A DNA stretch of 64,000 bases, taken from positions 1 through 64,000 of the forward strand of contig JABHNB010000016.1 of NCBI GenBank assembly GCA_018694115.1. Direction: 5' to 3'. Source of the DNA: an archaeon (GTDB taxonomy: Archaea; Nanobdellota; Nanobdellia; Pacearchaeales; GW2011-AR1). Within the stretch, counting starts at the first letter, position 1; each line of letters opens with the position of its first letter. This document shows positions 39,787 to 53,647 of this stretch, in pieces. The translations under genes were made by a program, and so were the position numbers. The notes below the pieces were generated by a model. It searched no databases, was not told where the DNA came from, and was given only the letters and a program-made list of their open reading frames with translations.

Positions 39787-39858
39787 GCCTATGTAGCTCA
39801 GTTGATAGAGCGCAACACTCGTAATGTTGAGGTCGTCGGTTTGATCCCGGCCATAGGC
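39787..39858 (+). tRNA. tRNA-Thr (anticodon CGU) with A19 and U56
   Basis: The acceptor is GCCTATG/CATAGGC and the anticodon loop CTCGTAA gives CGT (Thr, ACG codon). All stems pair. The T-loop reads TTTGATC, so position 56 is U instead of the near-universal C, and the D-loop AGTTGATA has A at position 19 instead of G. The two bases pair in the tertiary elbow, so the change is compensatory. No CCA is encoded. A tRNA-derived element follows. Confidence 0.92.
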
Positions 39859-39957
39859 TTAAATTGAGATCAAATTTTGATTCCGAGCAATTCGCTTTCT
39901 TGAAATAAATTTCAACATATTTTCAAGAAAGCGAATTGTAAGCAGGCCATAGGCTTA
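39849..39957 (+). mobile_element. tRNA-3'-end-flanked palindromic element, Thr copy
   Basis: GGCCATAGGCTTA at the tRNA end (39849-39861) recurs at 39945-39957. In between lie GATCAAA and TTTGAT, an inverted then direct copy of the T-arm, and a perfect 18-bp inverted repeat (39888-39905 with 39921-39938; 15-nt loop). The core begins CAATTCGC and ends GCGAATTG. The far repeat contains the stop codon of the convergent gene. No ORF. Confidence 0.65.
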
Positions 39958-41283
39958 CAAGAACAAGAAAACAGATCCCAAACCCACAGTCAAGATTATC
40001 AAGAAGATAATCGAGATATACATTGCAAATCTTTTCTCTCCAAAGAACCAGGCCATTCCAGCCTTAACCAACGTATTAGAAGATGCCGCTAAAATTATCG
40101 AAGTTGCCGCAACCTTTGAAGAGATTTGACCCGCACCACTTAGTGATGCCATTGTCAAGGTTATAGCATCCACATCCGCCAATCCAGACAGTATACTCGC
40201 AATATAGATTCCGGTTGAACCTGCTAAAATTTGCGCAATCTTTGCAACGAAGATAATCACTACAAAGAAGATCCCAAACTTTAATGCAGTCCAGATATTA
40301 AACGGTTGCTTGAACTTGATTTCCTCTGTTTTCTCCTTCTTTTTAGGTTTCCTTTTCTTCCTCAGATACAATCCAAATGCAGACATGTAACCCAAGATTC
40401 CCATCAATCCAAGAGGTAAGGCAACCATACCAACTAAATCTTTGTTAATTACAACAACCTCTAAGAGGATTCTAATAAAAGAAGTAGCCGAGGCAATAAC
40501 AACAGCGACGACAAATGGGCTAACAGTTCTCTTATGCCTCTTACTCTCTCCAGCCATCGAAAGTGTAACCGCAGTAGAAGAAACCAATCCGCCCACAAGG
40601 CCTGTCAAACCATAGCCTTTCTTCGCACCAAGGGTTTTAACTAAAATATATCCTAAGAAACTGATTCCTGCGACCAATATAACCATCAACCAAAAATTAT
40701 ACGGGTTAAACAAATTCAATTGTTGCATAATCGCAGTACTTAATCCTGCAGAAGATAATACATCCTTCAAAATTGGAACATCGAGTGGAGAAAACACCCT
40801 CCGAGGAAGCAAAGGCAATACAACTAAAGCAATTAAGGCAAACTCAACAACCGCAAATAGTTCTTTCCGTTTGATTTTATTAGCAAACTTATGTAACTTC
40901 TTCTTAAACGTCAAGAAAGCAGCAACTAAAATCCCTAAAATCACCGACTCGATCAAAAATCCGGCCACACACATAAAACCAAGAATAAAGACAATAATTG
41001 CAGTTATCTCAGTTGTAGAAGTATTCTGTTTATATTTAAGAAAAGTCACAAAATAAGAAGCAAGAGCAAAAAGTGAAACGACAATAAATCCCACAATTAC
41101 CAGATAATAATTCCCAACAACGCCCAGAGATAAGAATCCCAAGATCGCTCCAAAAAGTGAAATCAAAATAAATGTCCTTATTCCAGCAAACCTAGAAACT
41201 TGTGTATGATACTGTTCATACTCCCTCTGAAGACCAATCAATGCCCCCAGCATAATCGCTACAAGGAATCCCATCACTTCCAT
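39955..41283 (-). CDS. MgtC/SapB and DUF4010 membrane protein
   Basis: 442 residues. Residues 5-140 match the MgtC/SapB domain (LGALIGLQREYEQY, GIRTFILISLFGA, TEITAIIVFILGFM). Residues 170-440 match DUF4010 (GLTGLVGGLVSSTAVTLSMA, GLADVDAITLTMASL). It has about 13 transmembrane helices and is often annotated as a Mg-homeostasis or uncharacterised transporter. The stop codon falls in the duplicated tRNA end. Confidence 0.87.
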   Translation of the reverse strand: MEVMGFLVAIMLGALIGLQREYEQYHTQVSRFAGIRTFILISLFGAILGFLSLGVVGNYYLVIVGFIVVSLFALASYFVTFLKYKQNTSTTEITAIIVFILGFMCVAGFLIESVILGILVAAFLTFKKKLHKFANKIKRKELFAVVEFALIALVVLPLLPRRVFSPLDVPILKDVLSSAGLSTAIMQQLNLFNPYNFWLMVILVAGISFLGYILVKTLGAKKGYGLTGLVGGLVSSTAVTLSMAGESKRHKRTVSPFVVAVVIASATSFIRILLEVVVINKDLVGMVALPLGLMGILGYMSAFGLYLRKKRKPKKKEKTEEIKFKQPFNIWTALKFGIFFVVIIFVAKIAQILAGSTGIYIASILSGLADVDAITLTMASLSGAGQISSKVAATSIILAASSNTLVKAGMAWFFGEKRFAMYISIIFLIILTVGLGSVFLFL

Positions 41284-46946: not shown

Positions 46947-47762
46947 TTAATTTTGAACCTTCATCTCTTCAATTCCAGGTTCCCTACGTCTCTTTAGGAA
47001 AATAATTACCAAGATAATTACCAAAACAACTAAGACAATAATGCCCAAGATCCATAAGAGAATATTTGAAGAATCTTCTTCAGCCCGTTCCTTCGCGACA
47101 GAAGGTGCCCCTTCCACAATCTCTGCCCCCCCCTCAATAACTCCAATTTGTCTAGAAACTTGAATAGTCTTATATCCTTCCTTAGAAGCCTGAACATCTA
47201 TCCCATAAGTCCCAATCTCCTCCAACTCCAAAGTAGATGGAATCTCGATATCCTTAGATTTCCCAGAAGGGGAAGTCAATGTAGCAGTTATTAAAGGATT
47301 TTCAACTTCGGAGGTATAATTTAGATCAATCGTTTCACCAAGAATAAAAATACTTTTTTCCATTTCAAGATCAAAAGAAAAACTTGGAAGAGTATCAATT
47401 GTAAATGTTTTTTCTACCTTCTGTTGAACCGGAGACAAAATCTCAACATAAGCAGTACACGTTTGAGGTTCGATTGAATCATATATTGTTAAATAATCAT
47501 ATATTCCACTATAATTTTCCCCCCTAGATAAATTTAATTCTTCACTTTCTGCAGAAATTGGGGGAGCGTCTGGACAAATTATTTGTTTAACATACCTTAC
47601 GACGAGATTCTCATCAGAGGAAACAGTATAGCTAAAAGATATTTTTTCATTCAAATCAAACGAATCTTTAATATTCATTCCAATATTTAGTGAAGCAGAT
47701 GTTAAATTACATAAAAGTAAAGAGATTATTACCAATAACATTATTTTATTCATTTTATTCAT
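46947..47762 (-). CDS. Secreted membrane-anchored beta-domain protein
   Basis: 271 residues from ATG 47762, chosen because GGAGG of the overlapping gene's end lies 2-7 nt upstream. Signal peptide (2-22), two immunoglobulin-like domains, a C-terminal transmembrane helix (about 236-258) and a charged tail. It overlaps the gingipain-like gene by 8 nt and is probably its partner on the cell surface. Confidence 0.65.
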   Translation of the reverse strand: MNKMNKIMLLVIISLLLCNLTSASLNIGMNIKDSFDLNEKISFSYTVSSDENLVVRYVKQIICPDAPPISAESEELNLSRGENYSGIYDYLTIYDSIEPQTCTAYVEILSPVQQKVEKTFTIDTLPSFSFDLEMEKSIFILGETIDLNYTSEVENPLITATLTSPSGKSKDIEIPSTLELEEIGTYGIDVQASKEGYKTIQVSRQIGVIEGGAEIVEGAPSVAKERAEEDSSNILLWILGIIVLVVLVIILVIIFLKRRREPGIEEMKVQN

Positions 47763-50700
47763 AACCTCCAATTAGGGATAGTTTAAGTGTCGGATCCCCC
47801 ATCAAAATAAACTCACTATCGAAATGCTTACTGTTACAGTGTAAAGCTATATAATTGTCTATTTCTCCCAGGGAGCTTTCAGGATTTTGAGACAAAGCAT
47901 CAACCAACTTATCAGTTTGACAAACATATCCAGATATCCATGAAGGGCCTATAGCCCCATGATAACCTAGAGCACCCTGCCTTAAAGCTCGGATTGAGAT
48001 TAATCTTGATTTAGAATTCCAACGCCAAAAATCGCTATTCAAGCAAGATGCAGAGTGAATATATGTCAAATCTAGGGGGGGGATGTTCCCATAATCCAAT
48101 GCTTGGACCATGAGGCCTGGAGAACCATGATCCATAAACACAAATAATTGCCGATTTTGAACCAAGTCTTCCCAACCAAGAACTTTAATCAAGTAGTCGT
48201 TATAATCACAATCTACAGCATATTTTGAAACGCAAATAGAATTATATCCCAATCCATTAAGGGAATCTCGAATTACAAGAGGCTGATTTTGGACATCCAT
48301 AGGGAAACCAGCATTATCGCCAAATACTGAGATTGTGTTGTGATCCCCACTATAAAGGTGATCATAAAATAAAGATCTTGTAACATAAGAGGAGACATCA
48401 GAAATACTTAAACCATATATCCTTCCAACATTCATATTAAATTCAGAACCAACAAATTCCTGTAAATATATTTTACCTCCCCACTGGTCACCAAGATATT
48501 TTTTGAAATAGATTCCGGCCCCATCATTCCCAAGAAGATATTTATTTCCCGAGAGATCAAATTTCAATTCTTCAAAAATGTCTTCAACGACCATAATATT
48601 ATCATCACCATCAACTTTATAATATTTCTCTTGCCACCGGGGAGAAGATTGAGAATTATAATATTTAACTGTTAAATCCAGATTATTAAATTCATCAAAT
48701 TTCATATCAAGTAGTTTTGGCAGATACAAATTAATCGAGAAAGTTCCTTCATCTAATAAAAGACCATTTTCATCAAATACTCGGTGATGCACCATTTTAG
48801 AATAAATATCCTTCTTGAACAATAAATGAATTTTATTATTACTGTCTAAACCAGCTAAGTAATTATTTGAAAACTCAAGGGAAGAATCATCAAAAATCAC
48901 ACTCCCATTATTATCTAAAATCATATATCTTAGGTTGCCACTATTTTCTCCGGTTCTGGAAAATATATGATTTTTTCCAACAGAATCCGTAACAGAAACG
49001 GGAGATTTGCATTTCTCAGAACAGATGGTTGTATAATCTTTCAAGATGTCTCCTTGGTTATTTACTTTTAAAAAACCGATAAGATCTTCATAATTAAATC
49101 CCTTAAAGGTAATTAAGAAATTATTTGAATTATCCATCCCCACATTTAATATTCTTTTATTCCCCAATTCTCCTAAGATTCTCTCGGGAATAATCACATC
49201 ACCATTAGAATTTAATTTGAAATACCTCACACCATAGTTTAATGTATCTAAAATAATATTTAAGTTTTCTTCAGAATCAATCTGAAAAAAGAGTTCAGAG
49301 GGAGAGTCATATGAATCATAAGGAATGTAAAATCTTTTTTCTTCAATTAATAATTCCCCATTAGTGTTAAATTTTTTATAATATGCTTGACCAGCTACAA
49401 ATCTGCCAGGATCATAATAAATCCGGTGAACATTGCCTGAAGAATCAAACTGATTAATACCTTTTTCAATAGGATAATTTGGATTTCTTGCATAAATTCT
49501 ATCAACCCCTAATCTTTCATTCGATTGAATAGATTTTGTAAAAAGTCTTTCTGAATCTGGAATAACTGAGGGGGTAGCCATGATTGTTAAATATTTTGGA
49601 TTAAAATCATAGAGAATTATTTTATCTCTAATTAAAATATCTGAAGAGATAATATTATTTCTCATTTGGTCTGTAAAATCTATACTTTCTTCAAGAGAAT
49701 TTGTTAATATTAGTTCTTGCTTCGCACTCGCCAAAATCGGCGCAACCAAACTCGTCCCACTATAAATCTCATAGATAGGGTTAGGAGACTTCTCGGGCAA
49801 AAACACCTCATCAACTTTAATATCCAAATCATTAGGATTAACTAAAATAATCTTATCAGTATCAGTCATCTCGACATATTTCTGCTGTAACTCCTCCAAA
49901 CCATACTGCTCATCACAACTCATCCCAGTAGGACTCCCAACACAAGCAACATTCCTTCCAACCATATCCAAACCAACCGGCTCACTTCCTTCAATCACCA
50001 AAGGAGCATTAATTAAACTCGCATAAGTCGAAGCCAATAAGGCCAATTCGTAATCATCTTCAACATAAACAACATCTCCATAGGAACTCCAATAATCCAA
50101 ATAATTCTCCACACCAATCCTTTGAATCTGATCCCCCGAAAGTCCTGCTCCAAGCTCAGGTTCAGCAACTAACAAATTATCTAACCCTTGGGGTGTCTGC
50201 CCAATAACACTTACCCTATCTGGAGAGTATTGCTGCATAAAATAAATTGATGAATCTATATCAAAGATACTAATCGAATCATCACCAAAAATTTCCATGC
50301 TTAAATCATAAGAAGGCTCTTTACTGTATTCCCCAAAAACATATGGGTTTCCAACCCCAAATCCACAATGATCTGTTCCGGAGGATTCTATCTTGTACAT
50401 TTCTTCCTTGTTAATGGGTGTATTAAAGGTGAAGCTATGTAATTCATAATTTTTTGTAGGTATGTGTGAATCACTTTCTGCTATAAAATTATCCTGACTA
50501 TCTTTTAGTTTTAATTTAAAGCTAATACCCTCAGTCCCACAATTGATTTTCACTTCACTAATATAATCATCTTCCGCAATAAAACTTTGCCATGCGCCTG
50601 AAGGAAAAGACATTCCAACATTATATGCTATCTCTCCAATAAAAGGAACAAAATTCTCTTCTTCATGATAAATCAGCATCGGATAAACGCAAACATCCTC

Positions 50701-51972
50701 GGGAGTATTATAGCCTCTCTGACAGTCCAGTTCATCTCCAGTCCAAACACTAGCAGAAACAAACGGCAAAACATCTTTCCAATTTTTATCTGAGATTAAA
50801 AACAACTCCTTATCAGAATAAAGAGACATATTCTTTTGATTTTCCCTAATACAATCTTCACCGCAATCTTCTTCGCCCCCACCAATCTTCCAGAACATCC
50901 CCTCTTCATAAATCATATGAGCCTCTCCAGAAGCCCATCCATTTGCAACATCACCCATCGCACCAGTTGTCCAATTACCATCATACAGATTACCCTCATG
51001 ATTAAATCCAAGAGAAGGAGACACAGCCATCTTTCCAGTCACTCTCGGACCAACTTCCTGCCAAGTTCCATTATAACAATAAGGGGCAATATAACTATTT
51101 TCCATCCCGTGATTAATGTTGACAATTCTTATCCTTAGTTCGATCTTATCTAGATAATAATCAAAGCAACTATCAGGCAATAAAATTTCTTGTTCAACAA
51201 TTCCCGCAGGCACATGATTTGAAGCAACATGCTCATCCCCATACTTAACCTTCCATTTAGCCTGAACTGCTCCAGTATACTTATTATAAGTCACGCCAAA
51301 ATTAGAGTATCCGTCTTTCCAGGTAGGAGTATGAAATTCACGATCATCAGTTATGTATAAATCCGAATCTTCCTGATAAACCCAAGTAGTTGTGCCCCCC
51401 GCATCAAAATTTATAATTATAGTATTCCCATCCTCATCAATTCCATAAATCGTTCCTTCTCTCGGAACATTTCCAATCCTCAGCTCGACATCCCCAATAG
51501 CATTTCCAGTAATAACAACATTTGCAGTAACAGGACCCGTCCCGATCTTAAAAGAAGGAACAACCCTAACCGAATCCGGTTTATCTCCTCCCAGATCAAA
51601 TTTATACAATTTAGCAGAATTAGGTTCGAGAGTATCATTACCCGGGATTATAAGCTTGACAGATTCTCCTTCAACAGAAAAAATAACCTCAATATTTTTT
51701 AATTCAGAATCATCATCTCCCCTTTTTATCTGAACGCTCGCCAATCCCGTAGTTGGATCATACACAGTATATCCTTCAGAAGTTATAATCGAAAGTTCTC
51801 CTCCTGACCCCCCAAGATTAACTCCAAGAAGTGGTAGAATAACCATCCAAATAATTGCAATGGCAGCAACCACAATCAAGATTATTAGAACTGTTGCAAC
51901 AATAGTGCTCACTCCTCTTTTTCGATTCCCAAGAGGAAAACGTGAGAATCTCTGATTCACTCTTTTTTGCAT
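47755..51972 (-). CDS. Giant pilin-anchored gingipain-like protein
   Basis: 1,405 residues from ATG 51972. The N-terminus GNRKRGVSTIVATVLIILIV is a class III (type IV pilin) signal. Residues 560-680 resemble cell-wall-binding repeat 2 (DRVSVIGQTPQGLDNLL, ALLASTYASLINAPLVIEGS). The C-terminal domain (about 1240-1400) has the C25/caspase-like layout: catalytic His in FMDHGSPG, Cys in IHSASCLN, and the closing GDPTLKL. It may be an extracellular cysteine peptidase. TATA lies 26 nt before ATG 51972, divergent from superoxide reductase. Confidence 0.75.
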   Translation of the reverse strand: MQKRVNQRFSRFPLGNRKRGVSTIVATVLIILIVVAAIAIIWMVILPLLGVNLGGSGGELSIITSEGYTVYDPTTGLASVQIKRGDDDSELKNIEVIFSVEGESVKLIIPGNDTLEPNSAKLYKFDLGGDKPDSVRVVPSFKIGTGPVTANVVITGNAIGDVELRIGNVPREGTIYGIDEDGNTIIINFDAGGTTTWVYQEDSDLYITDDREFHTPTWKDGYSNFGVTYNKYTGAVQAKWKVKYGDEHVASNHVPAGIVEQEILLPDSCFDYYLDKIELRIRIVNINHGMENSYIAPYCYNGTWQEVGPRVTGKMAVSPSLGFNHEGNLYDGNWTTGAMGDVANGWASGEAHMIYEEGMFWKIGGGEEDCGEDCIRENQKNMSLYSDKELFLISDKNWKDVLPFVSASVWTGDELDCQRGYNTPEDVCVYPMLIYHEEENFVPFIGEIAYNVGMSFPSGAWQSFIAEDDYISEVKINCGTEGISFKLKLKDSQDNFIAESDSHIPTKNYELHSFTFNTPINKEEMYKIESSGTDHCGFGVGNPYVFGEYSKEPSYDLSMEIFGDDSISIFDIDSSIYFMQQYSPDRVSVIGQTPQGLDNLLVAEPELGAGLSGDQIQRIGVENYLDYWSSYGDVVYVEDDYELALLASTYASLINAPLVIEGSEPVGLDMVGRNVACVGSPTGMSCDEQYGLEELQQKYVEMTDTDKIILVNPNDLDIKVDEVFLPEKSPNPIYEIYSGTSLVAPILASAKQELILTNSLEESIDFTDQMRNNIISSDILIRDKIILYDFNPKYLTIMATPSVIPDSERLFTKSIQSNERLGVDRIYARNPNYPIEKGINQFDSSGNVHRIYYDPGRFVAGQAYYKKFNTNGELLIEEKRFYIPYDSYDSPSELFFQIDSEENLNIILDTLNYGVRYFKLNSNGDVIIPERILGELGNKRILNVGMDNSNNFLITFKGFNYEDLIGFLKVNNQGDILKDYTTICSEKCKSPVSVTDSVGKNHIFSRTGENSGNLRYMILDNNGSVIFDDSSLEFSNNYLAGLDSNNKIHLLFKKDIYSKMVHHRVFDENGLLLDEGTFSINLYLPKLLDMKFDEFNNLDLTVKYYNSQSSPRWQEKYYKVDGDDNIMVVEDIFEELKFDLSGNKYLLGNDGAGIYFKKYLGDQWGGKIYLQEFVGSEFNMNVGRIYGLSISDVSSYVTRSLFYDHLYSGDHNTISVFGDNAGFPMDVQNQPLVIRDSLNGLGYNSICVSKYAVDCDYNDYLIKVLGWEDLVQNRQLFVFMDHGSPGLMVQALDYGNIPPLDLTYIHSASCLNSDFWRWNSKSRLISIRALRQGALGYHGAIGPSWISGYVCQTDKLVDALSQNPESSLGEIDNYIALHCNSKHFDSEFILMGDPTLKLSLIGGYE

Positions 51973-52018
51973 AGTCAAAAAAGAATTTAGAATTATATAA
52001 ATGTTCTCAAAAAAAACA

Positions 52019-52944: not shown

Positions 52945-52960
52945 CAGCGTTGACAAGCTG
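52945..52960 (-). promoter_or_regulatory. Possible degenerate operator before the winged-helix gene
   Basis: On the minus strand CTTGTCAACGCTGTTAAGG resembles the GTTAACGC operator with a one-base change. It lies about 40 nt upstream of the regulator's ATG, and overlaps the far copy of the tRNA-Leu end. Confidence 0.3.
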
Positions 52961-53070
52961 TGGGGACGAGTCAATTCGCTTCGAGCGACTAAAGAGTATA
53001 TCACGCGAAATGCAAATTGCGAGCAAGAGGATGTAATCCTACGACTCACATTTTTCAAAAAATGTGGGGA
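52959..53070 (-). mobile_element. tRNA-3'-end-flanked palindromic element, Leu copy
   Basis: TGTGGGGA (the tRNA-Leu 3' end on the plus strand, 53063-53070) recurs at 52959-52966. Between are a 9-bp hairpin (53047-53055 with 53058-53066) reaching into the tRNA end, an imperfect inverted/direct copy of the T-arm (AGGAT...ATCCT), and a core 52972-53019 running from CAATTCGC to GCAAATTG. The core matches those at 39888 and 53569. Confidence 0.6.
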
Positions 53071-53146
53071 GGAGGATTCGAACCCCCGTAGGCAAAAAGC
53101 CACAGCCGCTTAAAGGCTGCCCGTTTGGCCGCTCCGGCATCCCCAC
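53064..53146 (-). tRNA. tRNA-Leu (anticodon UAA)
   Basis: Acceptor GTGGGGA/TCCCCAC; anticodon stem CAGCC/GGCTG with loop TTTAAGC gives TAA. Long variable arm (TGGC-TTTTT-GCCTA), standard TTCGAAT T-loop, no CCA encoded. Confidence 0.93.
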
Positions 53147-53465: not shown

Positions 53466-53539
53466 AGCGGGATGGAGCAGTCAGGTCAGCTCGTGAGGCC
53501 CATAACCTCAAGGTCGGTAGTTCAAATCTACCTCCCGCT
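53466..53539 (+). tRNA. Initiator tRNA-Met (anticodon CAU), with C33
   Basis: Acceptor AGCGGGA/TCCCGCT with A1:U72 is the archaeal initiator signature. The anticodon stem is TGAGG/CCTCA and the loop CCCATAA, so the anticodon is CAT and position 33 is C instead of the near-universal U. Only two of the three initiator G-C pairs (30, 31) are kept. T-loop TTCAAAT. TATA (ACTTTAAAAG) lies about 28 nt upstream. Confidence 0.9.
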
Positions 53540-53647
53540 ATTCTGAACTACCGACTGTCGGTAGCGAGCGATTCGCTTTGAGCAAGGCTATTTTCTATTT
53601 CTTGCGAGATGCAAATTGTGAGTAAAATCTACCTCCCGCTATTCTGA
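53524..53647 (+). mobile_element. tRNA-3'-end-flanked palindromic element, initiator Met copy
   Basis: A 23-nt direct repeat (AAATCTACCTCCCGCT plus ATTCTGA) occupies 53524-53546 and 53625-53647. After the first copy comes GAACTACCGAC then T then GTCGGTAG, an inverted then a direct copy of the T-arm 5' half. The core 53569-53618 runs from CGATTCGC to GCAAATTG. The far copy equals a tRNA 3' half with the core in place of TTC of its T-loop. Confidence 0.7.

Follow-up and report, generated by a model that had tools for sequence, protein, structure and literature searches.

Results

A hairpin-bearing insert follows the initiator tRNA gene

Why does a second copy of the end of the initiator tRNA gene lie just beyond that gene in this archaeal genome, and what is the palindromic sequence between the two copies? 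In the window (the whole 64-kb stretch of DNA that was analysed), an intact tRNA-iMet (CAT) gene occupies positions 53466–53540 of the forward strand (ARAGORN; Rfam tRNA, 60.5 bits), and its 3' part doubles as the left copy of a duplicated segment (AAATCTACCTCCCGCTATTCTGA, 53524–53546, +; sequence and alignment) that runs from position 57 in the T-loop to 6 nt beyond the tRNA. Next come the 5' strand of the T-stem and the loop in inverted form (GAACTACCGAC, 53545–53555, +) and, as a direct copy specific to tRNA-iMet, the variable-loop end and T-stem 5' strand (GTCGGTAG, 53557–53564, +), both recognised in the sequence itself. A 60-nt hairpin core of family A (53565–53624, +; nhmmer E 2e-13; covariance model, 68.4 bits) then lies within the T-loop of a partial tRNA copy, in the place of the T-loop TTC, and the right 23-nt copy of the tRNA 3' end (AAATCTACCTCCCGCTATTCTGA, 53625–53647, +) completes the insert. 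Only ~100 bp separates the two tRNA-end copies. From the sequence and from an empty orthologous site in a related genome (G015, see below) we infer that the tRNA originally ended in the right copy, as it is this copy that the downstream gene follows and similarity to the tRNA often reaches into the flank. An Rfam search matched only the tRNA and no other RNA family, and a known RNA family was rejected on this ground.

An earlier, sequence-only reading of this DNA had described the 23-nt repeat at 53524–53546 and 53625–53647, inverted and direct pieces of the T-arm 5' half, and a 50-nt core replacing the TTC of the T-loop. A check against the sequence confirmed the repeat coordinates and both pieces, and the 50-nt core is present inside the fuller 60-nt core given above. 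That reading had also noted a like architecture at tRNA-Thr (39787–40000) and, with the core reversed, at tRNA-Leu (52950–53146), and both were found. The tRNA-Thr (CGT) gene (39787–39859, +; ARAGORN) is followed by a near-perfect palindrome version of core A (39884–39943, +; sequence, nhmmer and covariance model) and by a right copy of its own 3' end (GGCCATAGGCTTA, 39945–39957, +; sequence and alignment). At tRNA-Leu (TAA; 53063–53146, −; ARAGORN), core A is reversed relative to the tRNA (52967–53024, +; sequence, nhmmer and covariance model) and the right copy measures 8 nt (TCCCCACA, 52959–52966, −; sequence). The window also holds a 1407-aa reading frame at 47755–51978 (−) with no NCBIfam match.

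The core recurs at tRNA ends in this genome and its relatives

We surveyed the whole source genome (899 kb in 16 contigs, 82.7% complete, of which the window is 64 kb), listing all 39 tRNA genes with their 3' flanks and using profiles for two core families, A and B. The profile search placed a significant A or B core just past the 3' end of 9 of the 39 tRNA genes and none outside tRNA 3' flanks anywhere in the genome (9/9 at tRNAs); likewise, blastn with the tRNA-iMet element returned significant relatives in this genome solely at other tRNA ends. The 'three-member family' of the sequence-only reading was therefore an undercount, the genome having at least nine A/B cores. A copy of the tRNA's own 3' end (within 260 nt of the tRNA, score ≥10) lies near 12 of the 39 tRNAs (31%), as against ~1.5% for mismatched tRNA ends in the same genome. 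The pattern of hairpins at tRNA ends in this genome is far beyond chance.

The core search and comparison of tRNA 3' flanks that the earlier reading had proposed extended this result, as the core is present at many tRNAs of relatives too. A covariance-model search of 200 genomes of the order found the hairpin in 19, namely 15 of the 16 genomes of the genus (the source and 14 others) plus G091, G021, G126 and G168 of the same family. Among five carriers from the genus, 26–61% of tRNAs have an own-end copy, and G091, from another genus, reaches 58%, compared with 1/40 tRNAs in three genomes that lack the hairpin but belong to the same family and order.

Other hairpins occur in similar settings. 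Extra families with similar ends, C (TGAGTTTCGAGCTATTTGA..), D (GAGCTTTTAGGTCTGGAC..) and E (GAGCAATTAGGTCT..), stand at tRNA flanks of the same kind, sometimes beside A or B (L117, L095, L233, L254, L198/L205/L211 and G000:C7:99244-99330). The elongator tRNA-Met of G003 carries a 69-bp unit (24 nt of tRNA end and a 45-nt hairpin-like insert) twice in tandem, without an A/B core, and a tRNA-Leu(CAA) is followed by a 44-nt insert, again without an A/B core, in which two small hairpins occur together with 9 nt copied from the end of this tRNA (G000:C7:50134-50186).

The arms of the hairpin covary

The core is a non-coding sequence of ~60 bp whose arms covary over 17 pairs, and the terminal inverted repeats characteristic of MITEs (miniature inverted-repeat transposable elements) are present. 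Among 48 aligned A cores, 14 of the 17 base pairs have changed on both sides, and 94.4% of the cells are paired, compared with 80.8% in shuffled alignments and 27–54% in slid pairings (0 of 500 shuffles came near). Two G.A/A.G steps, one T.T and one C.A mismatch are almost invariant. The hairpin call rests on covariation across copies, because the single-strand fold of the tRNA-iMet copy alone is no better than shuffled sequence (z 0.41). Fold energies of the cores are modest and beat shuffled sequence on both strands, the complementary strand giving the better values, and we therefore make no claim as to which strand folds. For the same reason we dropped a kink-turn or other strand-specific RNA motif, in which the conserved G.A mismatches would form sheared pairs. 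The arm covariation could reflect a hairpin that is required for mobility, or it could reflect correction of the palindrome via template switching.

Core orientation follows the side of the tRNA

The geometry of insertion was tabulated for 75 placed cores from 14 genomes (one MAG was entered under two names, DAOWGX being G011, with a 16,926-base contig in each, and its tRNA-His site is counted twice). The core starts 20–50 nt past the tRNA in 53 of the 75 sites and has a common direction in 69. The right copy begins at −17/−18, that is just after the T-loop TTC, in 34 of 61 sites, and mostly stops within a few nucleotides past the tRNA end. Where it begins later, the arm piece left of the core extends correspondingly further, so that the left piece and the right copy are one tRNA segment split by the core. 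While the core is common to many sites, the arm pieces are specific to each tRNA; in a specificity test the own tRNA was unbeaten in 23/38 cases and uniquely best in 11/38, a result that is suggestive only, as T-stems are alike and the two tRNA-Met genes were merged.

On the 3' side of tRNAs, 68 of 80 cores point with the tRNA. Cores on the 5' side show the mirrored geometry, 8 of 10 being opposite to the tRNA (the remaining two, on reading, belong to the preceding tRNA), and sit within a copied anticodon, D or T arm. The orientation of the core thus tracks the direction of exit from the tRNA and not transcription. Duplication length varies from ~10 to 40 nt in the site table and reaches ~72 nt on reading, plus one of ~110 nt judged by eye; the long examples are on the 5' side, at tRNA-Trp of G091 (up to ~72 nt) and at tRNA-Arg of G008 (the ~110 nt case).

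Filled and empty orthologous sites reveal movement

The sequence-only reading had suggested a look for filled and empty sites at orthologous tRNAs. When loci were paired by isoacceptor and downstream gene, many filled/empty pairs were indeed found, including the one at the locus in question: here rnhB homology begins 177 nt past tRNA-iMet, while the iMet-rnhB site of G015 is empty, with 36 nt and no copy or core between. In this genome Arg-TCG and Leu-TAA are filled, with the empty counterparts in G012 and G003, respectively; His-hisS is filled in G014 and G011 but not in G003, where it is empty, and Trp is filled in G008 but empty in G012. These clean cases matter because some 'empty' neighbours hold other hairpin inserts. 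Lys-TTT provides a further filled/empty orthologous locus with the same downstream gene. Across five genomes just 8–11 tRNAs are filled in each, at largely different isoacceptors. The hairpin element moves or has moved.

Units also occur in tandem arrays of two or three, at Gln, His, Ile, Thr and Val tRNAs. In the second unit at tRNA-Ile of G012 the tRNA end, the inverted piece and the arm piece recur with a different core, the pattern expected of stepwise growth. Cores within a genome are quite divergent (mean normalised score 0.25–0.48), and apart from G014 there is no recent burst of near-identical copies. A mild signal of shared descent exists at some tRNAs, with 10 nearest-neighbour matches against 3.2 expected, although two of the ten stem from the genome that was entered under two names.

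In G091 and G021 the same hairpin is also located away from tRNAs. In G091 a core lies in frame at the N-terminus of ileS (TIGR00392, 900 bits; L129:809-3730) and another in frame at the N-terminus of a TrmY-like gene (trmY, L274:449-901); the two are read in the same frame and give a nearly identical peptide (EQFALKNK...KSEMQIA). Four cores of G021 (L282, L283, L284, L285), with no tRNA near, share an outer context, GATGTCAA before the core and AGGATTG.. after it, and possibly belong to a larger repeat.

Candidate mobilisers and parent elements

Searches for a mobiliser returned one protein family common to all carriers tested. Tyrosine recombinases occur in 10/10, and most of these genomes include a ~280-aa Xer-like protein; such proteins are near-universal, and their presence is therefore merely permissive. 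Cas1 is absent from 9 of 10 carriers tested, and a casposon or Cas1 origin was rejected accordingly, as was a reverse transcriptase as mobiliser (missing in 8/10). The Y1 transposase is found in some relatives, but Y1_Tnp (PF01797) is absent from G000, G003, G005, G007, G008, G010, G012, G013 and G015; a Y1/REP transposase was rejected because this genome lacks it, as do most other carriers in the genus. Viral contigs and plasmids yielded no autonomous relative, and genomes were covered by searches with the core and four protein families; a viral or plasmid parent was set aside, with no match in either.

Tyrosine-integrase genes do lie downstream of tRNA-Asp, -Glu or -Arg(CCT), within a few hundred bases, in several genomes (L174, L192, L199, L220 and, in G000, tRNA-Glu at C8:23141-23217). 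These integrases (~400 aa) are ordinary integrated elements at a tRNA set distinct from the hairpin sites, and the integrase-bearing tRNAs examined are without the hairpin core. Well-matched tRNA 3'-end copies occur in this genome only right beside their own tRNA, with no convincing distant copies, and remnants of integrated elements were rejected on this basis.

Discussion

Probable insertion of a mobile hairpin into tRNA arms

Any account of these sites has to accommodate what is observed directly: insertion polymorphism, cores in both orientations, a mirrored geometry on the 5' side, duplications of the own tRNA and covarying arms. We consider it probable that the core is a non-autonomous mobile hairpin that inserts, as DNA, into tRNA-arm loops with a target duplication that keeps an intact tRNA. 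An element of ~60 bp would usually enter the T-loop, mostly directly after TTC at position 56/57, and at other times the T-stem 3' strand or, where an insertion points outwards from the 5' end of the tRNA, the loop of the anticodon or D arm. The insertion event would rebuild the outer part of the tRNA and so leave an intact tRNA beside the insert, the end product reading intact tRNA, inverted arm piece, direct 5' arm piece, hairpin core and original tRNA end. Later insertions beside the tRNA would repeat the process and build short arrays. The hairpin is presumably needed for movement, and an enzyme or repair process may act on hairpins in single-stranded or cruciform DNA. As to the agent, we tentatively propose, as one possibility among several, either a tyrosine recombinase of the Xer-like type or template switching during replication-repair where tRNA-arm hairpins are extruded. 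Of the 'miniature elements mobilised in trans' that the sequence-only reading had envisaged, the family at tRNA ends stands and mobilisation in trans is probable, in view of the empty orthologous sites, the core at many tRNAs and the lack of an autonomous relative in viral contigs or plasmids. Several features speak against a hairpin element: the variable duplication lengths (18 to ~72 nt, ~110 nt by eye) are unlike those of a standard transposase, a tRNA-specific inverted and direct arm piece beside the core is not a normal product of transposition, cores within a genome are quite divergent, some tRNAs give a mild signal of shared descent, and the single-strand folding energy is modest and better on the complementary strand.

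Could the flank instead act as RNA? The pre-tRNA trailer would then fold via the T-arm copies and the core and govern processing, termination or the release of a small RNA, in the manner of rtT RNA from the tyrT operon in E. coli; the covarying arms, an inverted arm piece that could pair with the T-arm or its copy, the prevalence of 3'-side cores pointing with the tRNA (68/80) and the often exact right copies would suit such a device. Occupancy is scattered, however (8–11 filled tRNAs per genome, few shared isoacceptors), empty orthologues exist, cores on the 5' side, like reversed copies, run antisense to the tRNA, some copies lie inside protein genes and Rfam matches the tRNA only. We regard an RNA device as improbable, and the 'repeated tRNA-processing or termination device' of the sequence-only reading as unlikely, since orientation follows insertion geometry rather than transcription. 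The classic integrase picture, with the far tRNA copy as attR, did not find support either. On that account the sites would be remnants of larger integrase elements, the left copy being attL, the right copy attR and the middle deleted; tRNA 3' ends are the usual integrase targets, integrases do follow tRNA-Asp, -Glu and -Arg in these genomes and partial tRNA duplication through integration is well documented (PMC9897764). Convincing distant copies are nevertheless missing from this genome, the examined integrase-bearing tRNAs have no core, the core is shared while arm pieces are tRNA-specific, tandem units carry different cores, and duplications of variable length, some of them long, extend to 5'-side, anticodon- and D-loop sites, all of which makes att remnants very improbable.

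As regards mechanism, the strongest competitor is template switching by repair alone. Hairpin-driven switching during replication or repair would make the arm pieces and tandem duplications, and the core would be copied passively from elsewhere, no dedicated system of mobility being involved. In its favour are palindromic junctions, duplications of variable length, other hairpins with the same tRNA-end duplication (such as the doubled unit at the G003 elongator tRNA-Met) and the ability of palindrome correction to yield arm covariation. We nonetheless think pure repair scars unlikely, because one core family with conserved sequence and mismatches spans genera, and because 39 of 40 tRNAs in non-carriers of the same family and order lack such duplications, which argues for a lineage-specific element. 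Array-like growth beside the tRNA and target duplication at tRNA 3' ends also recall miniature casposons, or another Cas1-driven insertion that duplicates its target as in CRISPR arrays, but with Cas1 in a single carrier of the ten and no fixed duplication length this explanation has hardly any probability. A more speculative version of the hairpin element, which we hold to be rather doubtful, is a mobility system that reads tRNA arms as folded hairpins: a hairpin would be joined into the extruded arm loop and the tRNA end copied out, the tRNA acting as the counterpart of a CRISPR leader and repeat, with hairpin 'spacers' accumulating next to it.

If the mobile-hairpin reading is true, a selfish element of reduced archaeal genomes parks in essential, insertion-intolerant tRNA genes by rebuilding the piece that it interrupts. 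Fragments of tRNA genes and in-frame insertions in archaeal proteins would each gain a new source, and shape-based (hairpin-based) DNA insertion would gain a tractable example, whose mechanism is testable because filled and empty orthologous loci are in hand. For annotation, partial tRNA copies can be miscalled.

Relation to known systems

No published description of this layout at tRNA ends was found in the literature searched, of which coverage was partial, in line with the sequence-only reading, which had known of no described family. In the E. coli tyrT operon (rtT RNA), tandem repeats past the tRNA gene each contain the last ~19 nt of the tRNA, in 178-bp units at one locus; the hairpin sites resemble them in downstream tandem repeats with a tRNA-end copy, whereas tyrT has no hairpin family shared over many tRNAs. 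Integron attC sites are imperfect hairpins that are recognised by shape and recombined single-stranded by a tyrosine recombinase, with growth of short arrays, but this is an analogy only, as the attC core motif is not seen in the hairpin element. MITEs have a target duplication of fixed length, whereas the duplications here are variable.

REPs and REPINs with their RAYT (TnpA-REP) are described as short imperfect hairpins that are non-autonomous and thought to move as single-stranded DNA (PMC8266576, PMC6006769); REPs are intergenic and carry a GTAG/CGTC tag (PMC3733652). The hairpin element is likewise a short, imperfect and non-autonomous hairpin, but REP/RAYT has an associated Y1 protein, and Y1_Tnp is lacking here and in most other carriers from the genus. 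REPs are not known to duplicate tRNA ends. Rickettsia palindromic elements (RPE) and their Wolbachia counterparts are short palindromic families scattered in reduced genomes that can sit in frame in protein genes (PMC3767692), and they are like the hairpin core in their short palindromes, in their in-frame copies (ileS and trmY of G091) and in having no known mobiliser; RPE measure 100–150 bp and are known mainly from protein genes, whereas the hairpin element has tRNA arms as its main target and duplicates the host tRNA end each time. Repetitive hairpin-forming families also invade the mitochondrial genomes of sponges (PMC2800124) and are similarly short, but they are mitochondrial, have no tie to tRNA arms and no flanking duplications are reported for them. 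Integrative elements with a tyrosine integrase have the 3' portion of tRNA genes as their target, and partial copies of the tRNA remain after integration (PMC9897764), while the inserts described here are ~100 bp, gene-free, carry an arm-specific inverted piece and also occupy 5'-side and anticodon-loop sites. None of the nearest systems, namely RPE, REP/REPINs, tRNA-integrating elements and the E. coli tyrT repeats, brings together a hairpin family common to many sites, the targeting of tRNA arms, and a duplication that is tRNA-specific and accompanied by an inverted arm piece. The inserts described here, from one small group of Nanoarchaeota, appear to be miniature mobile elements of a new kind that targets tRNAs.
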